From Aggregatilinea lenta (GTDB taxonomy: Bacteria > Chloroflexota > Anaerolineae > Aggregatilineales > Aggregatilineaceae): a stretch of 64,000 nucleotides of DNA. Positions 32,671-35,431 of the stretch are shown piece by piece. Each line of letters opens with the position of its first letter. Positions within the stretch are counted from its first letter, which is position 1. The notes beneath the pieces are model-generated. The model made no database searches. It worked only from the letters and a program-made list of their open reading frames with translations, and was not told where the DNA came from. The position numbers were made by a program, and so were the translations under genes. The stretch spans positions 868,001-932,000 of the forward strand of contig NZ_BFCB01000002.1 of assembly GCF_003569045.1 (NCBI RefSeq). Reading direction: 5' to 3'.

Positions 32671-33066
32671 ATGGGGTTCGTCGTACGTAAACTACAGGGT
32701 GAGCCGATTGCCATCGTCACCCTTGCGCTGCCCATCGAGCGCTATCCCAGCGGGCCAGGCATGATCTGCCACCAGCTCGCACAGTTAGCCGCCCGCGAGG
32801 CTGGTCCCCTGTTCGCCATCTTCGATATGCGCAGGCTCGAACCATCACTGAGCGATATTCACCTCTGGCTCGCCGATCAAACGCACACCGCCAGCGGCTC
32901 CATCTACGACTCGCGCATCCATCCCATCCTCGTCGGCACCCACCCGATGGTCCCTCTCGCCGCCAAAAAAGCCCGCCAGCACCTGGACATGGAAGTCCGC
33001 CACGTCGCCACCCTGGACGAGGCGCTCACCTACGCGCGCTGCGCTCGCCCGTCCAGAACCGCCTGA
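32671..33066 (+). CDS. Small hypothetical cytoplasmic protein
   Basis: 131 residues, no signal peptide or membrane helix. The pattern of alternating strands and helices (IAIVTLALPIERYPSGPG, GPLFAIFDMRRLEPSLSDIHLWLADQT, IHPILVGTHPMVPLAAKKARQ, VRHVATLDEALTYAR) suggests a compact alpha/beta fold, possibly of the STAS/SpoIIAA kind, but I cannot assign it. GTGAGG upstream is a modest ribosome site. The AT-rich region before it suggests distinctive regulation. It lies just before the glmS leader and on the same strand, separated from it by a candidate promoter. Confidence 0.65.
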   Translation: MGFVVRKLQGEPIAIVTLALPIERYPSGPGMICHQLAQLAAREAGPLFAIFDMRRLEPSLSDIHLWLADQTHTASGSIYDSRIHPILVGTHPMVPLAAKKARQHLDMEVRHVATLDEALTYARCARPSRTA

Positions 33067-33138
33067 GCGCACGCCTTACAACCGCCTCGCATCACCCGCC
33101 GTTTTCCGATCAACTTGCTTACAGTTTTGCCAAGGTGC

Positions 33139-33166
33139 TGGACCCGCGCAAAAAGTTCTGTATACT
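33139..33166 (+). promoter_or_regulatory. Candidate promoter of the glmS leader
   Basis: TGGACC, 16-base spacer, TATACT. It would start the RNA at about 33173, some 70 bases upstream of the predicted ribozyme cleavage site. Confidence 0.55.
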
Positions 33167-33240
33167 GGCTGTAGGTGTTAAACACTTCAACCGGACTTGA
33201 TGCTATCGGGAGGCCGCCTATACGCCCAAACGGGGGAACA

Positions 33241-33422
33241 CTAGCGCAAGGCCCCGCACGTTTCACGCGGGGATACGAGGTGGCGGTTGCTCACCGTGGG
33301 GTGAGACTAACCCCGCCAGGGAAACCTGTGCCGGGGGAAAATCGAGGTATCTGCGGATGCCGCCAGGGCGCACACCATCGCCCTCGTCAGTTCCCTCCCA
33401 ACTGAAGCCGCGTCACAAAGAC
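33241..33422 (+). ncRNA. glmS ribozyme: glmS ribozyme (glucosamine-6-phosphate-responsive self-cleaving leader)
   Basis: It lies 160 bases before glmS. Read against the known glmS ribozyme, the parts come in order: cleavage site A33243/G33244 in TAGCGC; P1 hairpin CCCCGC...GCGGGG (about 33252-33272); the conserved ACGAGGTGGCGGTT; ATCGAGGTATCTGCGGATG (33341-33359) matching the core AUCGA...GGCGGAUG; then CCGCC closing P2 with GGCGG; a downstream hairpin AGGGCG...CGCCCT; CAGTT...AACTG; and ACAAAG. Pairings covary: CGCA after the cut site pairs with TGCG in the core, where Firmicutes have CGCC with GGCG. A segment of about 50 bases is inserted in the P2 loop. In known examples, bound glucosamine-6-phosphate triggers cleavage and lowers GlmS. 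Identification is from memory of the consensus, not a search. Confidence 0.85.
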
Positions 33423-33583
33423 CCCAGGCAACTGCGGCCCAGAACCACGCGGCAGTGGTGATCTTCCAAACATCCGACAACCGAATGCTATCTACGCGAC
33501 GACCGGTCTGCGCGCACGCCTGCGCCTGTCACGGCTGCCTGCGCACACCCGGATCGCCGCGTTTCCCTGGGAGGGACTCTATT

Positions 33584-35431
<1,848 letters not shown>

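Follow-up and report, generated by a model that had tools for sequence, protein, structure and literature searches.

A predicted glmS ribozyme with a two-hairpin core insert in the glmS leader of Aggregatilinea lenta and its relatives in Chloroflexota

The glmS leader of Aggregatilinea lenta

The window analysed here is a stretch of 64,000 nucleotides of the A. lenta genome (GCF_003569045.1, contig NZ_BFCB01000002.1, positions 868,001 to 932,000), and all positions below count from its first letter. It contains glmS and, in the glmS leader, a candidate ribozyme that occupies 33232-33460 when the P0 and P3.1 strands are included (Table 1). A frame of 131 aa (32671-33066) lies upstream of the leader on the same strand.

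Table 1. Features of the glmS leader in the window
Feature	Position	Strand	Basis or remark
-10-like box TATACT	33161..33166	+	sole promoter-like site in 33060-33600; 9/12 consensus letters; shuffles mean 0.2 sites
Shine-Dalgarno-like GGGAGG, 5' of the cleavage site, without gene start	33208..33213	+	sequence reading
P0 5' strand (GGGGGAAC)	33232..33239	+	pairs with 33390-33397, one G-U
Predicted cleavage site A(-1)/G1	33243..33244	+	sequence reading
P2.2 5' strand GCGCAAG	33244..33250	+	pairs with 33351-33355; bulge is position 5 or 6
P1 hairpin	33251..33273	+	33252-33257 with 33267-33272
ACGAGG box	33275..33280	+	CGA pairs with UCG 33342-33344 (P2.1)
P2 5' strand GGCGG	33282..33286	+	pairs with CCGCC 33360-33364
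Two-hairpin insert, 52 nt, linker ACUAA, tail GAAA	33289..33340	+	between GGCGGUU and AUCGA
Inserted hairpin I, CTCACC-GTGG-GGTGAG	33290..33305	+	7/7 pairs changed on both sides (47 relatives)
Inserted hairpin II	33311..33336	+	33311-33315 with 33332-33336; inner CAGG-GAAA-CCTG 33317-33328; 5/5 pairs changed on both sides
AUCGA, P2.1 3' strand and putative cofactor pocket	33341..33345	+	role after PMC7125110 (available parts)
P2.2 3' strand CUGCGG	33351..33356	+	sequence and relatives
P2 3' strand CCGCC	33360..33364	+	covariation and sequence
P3 hairpin, AGGGCG-CACACCAT-CGCCCT	33365..33384	+	covariation and sequence
J3/4 pyrimidine strand	33390..33400	+	33390-33397 pairs with P0; 33392-33400 (TCCCTCCCA) exactly complementary to 33568-33576 (glmS ribosome site)
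P4 domain	33407..33453	+	GCCGCGT 33407-33413 with ACGCGGC 33447-33453; ACAAAG 33415-33420; L4 GCAA 33428-33431
P3.1 3' strand GTGGTG	33455..33460	+	pairs with P3 loop 33373-33378
glmS ribosome-binding site GGGAGGG	33569..33575	+	sequence reading
glmS, glutamine--fructose-6-phosphate transaminase, 615 aa	33584..35431	+	start ATG 33584; TIGR01135 783 bits, cut-off 418

The leader shows the characters of a glmS ribozyme: a scissile A/G1 followed by GCG, a P1 directly behind G7, the double pseudoknot P2/P2.1/P2.2, P3 with the P3.1 pseudoknot, and the location ahead of glmS. A P4 with a GNRA L4 and a purine-rich internal loop is also present, as read in the window only. The P2.1 and P2.2 pairings were assigned after the available parts of PMC11602151 and PMC7125110. 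Among relatives, P2 and P2.2 show compensatory variation; P2.1 is invariant and is therefore a reading of the sequence, not proved by covariation. Position -1 is A in 126 of the 127 glmS-linked copies with a placed cut, which is partly by construction since the placing favoured A. The folding energy of the stretch is not unusual (z -1.17) and was dropped as proof of a ribozyme.

All the ribozyme parts named in the original prediction are in the sequence (cleavage site, P1, ACGAGG, P2, AUCGA, CUGCGG, P3, ACAAAG), and its two helix replacements relative to the Firmicutes version (P2.2 as GCGCAAG/CTGCG, P2 as GGCGG/CCGCC) were right. The proposed extent, 33241-33422, lies inside the RNA but is too short, as P0 begins at 33232, P4 closes at 33453 and the P3.1 strand follows at 33455-33460. 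The parts listed in order do exist, but the 52 nt with two hairpins between GGCGGTT and ATCGA had been passed over. The identity as a glmS ribozyme is supported by the anatomy, the GlmS context and the covariation among relatives: the leader very probably encodes a glucosamine-6-phosphate (GlcN6P)-activated, self-cleaving ribozyme of an insert-bearing Chloroflexota subtype.

Collection of relatives and distribution in Chloroflexota

A DNA search gave matches at E <= 0.01 in 39 of 61 genomes (its own and 60 relatives) and none in the remaining 22. A scan of public genomes with an inserted-core pattern gave at least 120 stretches; pooled with the DNA search these make at least 150 loci, at least 147 with the core pattern and at least 134 distinct. 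Because the copies were gathered by core patterns, they carry the letters of those patterns by construction, and this conservation is not used as evidence. In the 206 distinct copies discussed below, a gene was labelled if blastp matched it at 45 bits or more to one of a small set of query proteins, with the nearest frame taken first; gene counts over these copies are not rates, because the public scan gives the matches listed only (at least 120). The cut is not placed in 22 of the 206; 180 copies were used for the Shine-Dalgarno-like block, 204 for P3.1 and 189 for P0.

Among the matches listed, 115 of 120 inserted-core records bear titles read as Chloroflexota, and four genomes of the window's own family share 900-base stretches with such records, in agreement with the host phylum originally proposed. 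By record title, the other five among the matches listed are one Actinomycetes, one Gracilibacteria and three Bipolaricaulota MAGs. The insert-bearing type is widespread in Chloroflexota.

Across 301 genomes of the phylum, the Rfam glmS model (RF00234) finds 90 at E <= 0.001 and 78 over its cut-off; model R1, built from an alignment of 47 relatives that leaves out the window's own sequence, finds 97. Rfam's model thus already detects the ribozyme in the phylum; the unusual points are the two-stem insert and the use of the insert type before other genes. Insert-less forms occur in the phylum too (L262, L264, L276, L280, L288, L300, L305 and L306), with P2 within a few bases of an AUCGA-like box. 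R1 matches 112 places in the phylum outside the window; a broadened core pattern is absent from 39 of these, at least one of which (L267) does have an insert.

Pairings on either side of the cut

A Shine-Dalgarno-like GGAGG or AGGAG is found at -60..-12 from the cut in 94 of 125 glmS-linked copies, against 17.2 in shuffles and eight of 125 in each neighbouring interval. The block is present in three of 26 glnA-linked copies, none of 11 ada-linked copies and eight of 39 places without the core pattern. Counting every label, 106 copies have the block, at a median position of -36. No consistent start codon stands behind it: 55 of the 106 blocks have no ATG/GTG/TTG/CTG/ATH at 3-10 nt and the rest are mixed, with start-stop minimal frames in a few copies. 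A CAAYYGAATA-like motif was seen over the same interval in eight of the 26 glnA-linked copies (shuffles 0.3), where the block is rare.

Among 90 thinned copies, the mean P0 match is 6.13 with the own partner versus 4.87 with swapped partners (z 11.4), and J3/4 matches the glmS ribosome site over 5.82 versus 5.00 (z 8.3); both exceed all 200 swaps. Relatedness as the source of the P0 and the J3/4-ribosome-site matches was checked by thinning and by reversed strands: the reversed ribosome site is flat (z 1.1), whereas reversed P0 exceeds swapping (z 5.7), so that part of the P0 signal is lineage composition. The J3/4 tests drew on 133 glmS copies for base sharing and 121 for the swap test. In 70 of the 133 copies both J3/4 pairings reach at least 5 bases, and 47 of these 70 share bases between the two.

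P0 pairing is also above swapping in the 37 glnA copies (5.54 vs 4.84 ± 0.15); it shows no excess in the 11 ada copies (5.45 vs 5.45) and is weak or missing in the Roseiflexus/Chloroflexaceae types. For P3.1 the mean longest match in 139 glmS copies is 5.32 versus 4.77 ± 0.06 partner-swapped, and there is an excess in glnA (4.97 vs 4.56) and ada copies (5.91 vs 5.46) but not in the 11 glutamate synthase-, SIS- and DegT-linked copies (4.82 vs 5.01 ± 0.23).

In Bacillus, the GlcN6P-induced cut followed by RNase J1 decay of the 5'-OH glmS mRNA is established (PMC3997798, available parts). RNase J is encoded twice in the A. lenta genome (590.7 and 538.3 bits, cut-off 400). With ample GlcN6P, the RNA would be cut between 33243 and 33244 and would lose the 5' piece with the Shine-Dalgarno-like block and the P0 strand. 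The 5'-OH end would then be open to RNase J, leading to decay of the mRNA, and the J3/4 strand 33392-33400, freed from P0, could cover the glmS ribosome site by pairing and so shut down translation as well. We put forward this strand switch of J3/4 tentatively, as possible rather than probable, from the complementarity of the strands.

The RNA could instead act only as in Bacillus, by the cut and RNase J decay, with P0 and the J3/4-ribosome-site complementarity having no regulatory role. This is a serious possibility, close to even: the mechanism is established, RNase J is present twice, and pyrimidine-rich J3/4 strands and purine-rich ribosome sites match easily (the swapped mean is already 4.9-5.0). 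Own-partner matches lie above all swaps for both pairings, however, reversed ribosome sites do not stand out, and in the window 9 bases of J3/4 are complementary to the ribosome site of its own glmS, all of which speaks against this reading.

The two-hairpin insert

Among the matches listed, hairpin I could be parsed in 131 of 134 inserts and hairpin II as well in 129; three inserts are without a parsed hairpin I and two more without a parsed hairpin II. Alignment A1 comprises 47 of 63 copies, with 38-46 nt inserts and a short P1. In it, 89.9% of cells are paired, versus 70.1% when shuffled and 36-47% when slid by 1-3 columns, and all 12 modelled base pairs of the insert show compensatory changes.

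Three elements recur in the insert over the 206 copies gathered: YUAA behind the first ten bases (182 copies), a GCRA word at the loop place of hairpin I (125 copies) and a GAAA/GAAC/GAAG tail (168 copies). The UAA/GAN internal-loop motif has UAA 5' and GAN 3' of a helix and is closed by a second helix. The YUAA and the tail of the insert may correspond to its UAA and GAN sides; the counts cover these two elements. There are exceptions to the two-hairpin plan: L026 has a single hairpin and L018 seems to be without hairpin I.

The extra hairpins probably brace the core, a role that is a guess. A second aptamer, by which the ribozyme would respond to a further metabolite, is quite unlikely. The insert does adjoin the cofactor pocket and has its YUAA linker and A-rich tail, but outside the linker, the tail and the frequent GCRA loop the stems vary freely, like bracing hairpins, and L026, and seemingly L018, do with less than two. 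No constant pocket is seen in the aligned inserts, and the second-aptamer reading was set aside.

Detection by covariance models

At its gathering cut-offs Rfam has no match in the window, and RF00234 has none in the whole genome. Relaxing the threshold brings up an RF00234 match of 22.2 bits at 33232-33463 (E 0.005 in 701 bases; gathering cut-off 37), in an alignment that must bridge 61 core bases holding most of the 52-nt insert. The window thus falls under the cut-off because the insert separates P2 from AUCGA. Six of 20 other insert-type stretches scanned do exceed 37 bits, so the insert does not exclude membership of the glmS-ribozyme family. R1 gives 113.4 bits (E 4.7e-30) on the window, its sole match up to E 1 in the 64 kb. 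The Infernal search proposed with the original prediction hence fails with the Rfam model but succeeds with a model built without the window. Thirty-six sampled genomes belong to the same class as A. lenta but to other orders; RF00234 (E <= 0.001) has matches in 19 of them and R1 in 29, a comparison that favours R1, which was built from related Chloroflexota.

The score under Rfam's cut-off would fit a decayed, inactive remnant of a glmS ribozyme, but the core letters are intact in the window and the helices are kept by compensatory change across relatives, which makes decay hardly tenable. Chance resemblance, for which the sub-threshold Rfam score is all that speaks, is ruled out by the covariation, the R1 score and the GlmS context (94 of the 112 other places in the phylum).

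Genes downstream of the ribozyme

The blastp labels of the genes downstream of the 112 R1 places are GlmS (94), GlnA (4), a glutamate synthase-domain protein (1) and a DegT-type aminotransferase (1). Of the 12 unlabelled places, 11 precede an Ada-like gene (at two of these a small gene intervenes) and one (L307, 26.9 bits, inside a reading frame) was judged spurious. Among the matches listed, the 206 distinct copies precede GlmS (139), GlnA (37), Ada (9), an Ada-like locus with a small gene (2), glutamate synthase-domain proteins (7), SIS/GTPase proteins (3), DegT (1) or no labelled gene (8). Seven of the last eight have little downstream sequence (16-506 bases) and one is L070.

Profile searches confirm the labels in the cases scored: TIGR00653 (GlnA, cut-off 429) gives 554.8 bits in L072 and 655.1 bits in L091, and PF01645 gives 302-342 bits in four glutamate synthase-domain loci (L037, L096, L119 and L142). 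Copies linked to glnA are found, for example, in Bellilinea caldifistulae GOMI-1 (L120) and Levilinea saccharolytica KIBI-1 (L131); genome G164 contains the L120 stretch plus a second copy before glmS. A linkage to glnA as a mere neighbour effect of glmS was rejected for G164, G228 and G260, because the glnA- and glmS-linked copies are on different contigs, and likewise for the glutamate synthase-linked copy in G156.

In L240 the Ada-like protein combines AraC-type with methylguanine methyltransferase domains. An EamA transporter is encoded further downstream in L245 and in several ada-linked loci. Pfam has no match for the small gene of L258 or for a 46-aa frame in L070.

Several further loci are worth recording. 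L070 (760-1243, Longilinea arvoryzae KOME-1) has a bulge-4 ribozyme (see below) before that 46-codon frame (MAEENALPIEFNEIEDEYIEQR...), with a ribosome-site-like GGAGG, and not before glnA. Insert-type ribozymes precede a GTPase-SIS protein in three MAGs titled Bipolaricaulota (L088, by Pfam; L111 and L121, by blastp). A 6S RNA (RF00013) lies directly 5' of the ribozyme in the glnA-linked L202 (49-224, 66 bits) and in the ada-linked L240 (1-160, 48 bits).

The glnA/ada branch

Copies before glnA and ada differ from the glmS-linked ones in P2.2: its sequence is GCG[G/A]CUG and its bulge falls at position 4 in 32 of 37 glnA-linked, 11 of 11 ada-linked and one of seven glutamate synthase-linked copies; together, 43 of 48 glnA- and ada-linked copies have the bulge at 4, versus none of the 127 placed glmS-linked copies (12 are unplaced). 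Position -1 is A in all 44 bulge-4 copies. Of the 31 thinned glnA copies, 28 (without L053, L074 and L135) form alignment A2, in which the fold is preserved: 97.3% of cells are paired versus 89.4% shuffled and 19 pairs are changed on both sides.

The ada copies are altered further: bases 26-27 are changed (CA or TA), AUCGG replaces AUCGA in 11 of 11, and a loop is longer. Second copies with ada linkage and altered core letters were seen at L236, L239, L240, L242, L245, L247, L252, L258, L259, L261 and L263. At the pocket position U43, for which the pattern would have accepted U or G, every one of the 37 glnA and 11 ada copies has U. Among GlmS copies U43 is G in nine of 139, and AGCGA stands for AUCGA (cofactor pocket and P2.1) in some glmS-linked copies (L211, L246 and L248).

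Between ribozyme and gene, 148-197 nt downstream of the core, 16 of 37 GlnA, four of seven glutamate synthase and five of nine Ada leaders have a hairpin GCAYGC-N2-6-GCRUGC, in most cases with a U-rich stretch after it. It is found in neither of the two Ada-like leaders with a small gene nor in any of 138 glmS leaders, and it occurs a single time in the remainder of the 850,664 bases. A looser terminator scan gives 19 of 37 for GlnA (shuffled 4.3), five of seven for glutamate synthase (1.0), seven of 11 for Ada-like (0) and seven of 139 for GlmS (9.7). As the hairpin resembles an intrinsic terminator, attenuation may be added in the glnA, glutamate synthase and ada leaders.

The glutamine riboswitch RF01739 has no match at its gathering score in the 20 stretches scanned, which include eight glnA-linked leaders (L120, L131, L072, L091, L202, L206, L219 and L224; L120 and L206 are one place). 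Two of these leaders, L219 and L224, exceed the cut-off of RF00234.

Relation to known RNAs

The RNA shares with RF00234 the A/GCG site, P1, the double pseudoknot P2/P2.1/P2.2, P3, P3.1, P4 with a GNRA L4, and the place in the glmS leader. It differs in the two-hairpin insert in J2/2.1, in the P0 helix 5' of the cut, in a J3/4 complementary to the ribosome site, and in a P2.2 bulge often at 5, or at 4 in glnA/ada-linked copies, instead of 6; the window moreover scores below Rfam's cut-off. The glnA RNA (RF01739) also precedes glnA, but the RNA here is of the glmS-ribozyme kind.

McCown, Roth and Breaker are said to have described, in 2011, Deinococcus-Thermus variants of the glmS ribozyme with additional stems in the catalytic core, and reportedly found glmS ribozymes linked nearly exclusively to glmS. 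By that description those variants share with the RNA here the presence of extra core stems, and the insert may be partly known already. In the open-licence literature, no report of the glnA linkage or of the insert was found among titles and abstract openings, and no paper on ribozymes in Anaerolineae was found; neither linkage nor insert is reported in the available parts of PMC2258182 and PMC3766115.

In STAB-SD leaders, a strong Shine-Dalgarno without a start codon stabilises the leader (Agaisse and Lereclus 1996, as cited in the available parts of PMC3997798). The block found here is likewise strong, near the 5' end and without a start codon; unlike STAB-SD, it is on the piece that the ribozyme would cut off, and its stabilising effect is putative.

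Implications

The current covariance model overlooks part of the Chloroflexota ribozymes. GlcN6P is an inhibitor of glutamine synthetase in E. coli, and since GlcN6P is made with glutamine, its control of the glnA copies would fit nitrogen economy. For a property that mutational mapping of the core had suggested (PMC7125110, available parts), the bulge-4 P2.2 would be an example from nature. A wider, somewhat unlikely reading is that the insert type is a cut-triggered strand switch that has spread to glnA, glutamate synthase-domain genes and the ada-EamA locus, with the glnA/ada branch, marked by its bulge-4 P2.2 and leader-specific terminator-like hairpin, as a sister class whose cofactor is maybe no longer GlcN6P. 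If this reading is true, the glmS ribozyme would not be a one-gene device: nitrogen-assimilation genes, a setting where such switches were not expected, would have the supply of glutamine and glutamate tied to the amino-sugar level, or else the cofactor would have changed.
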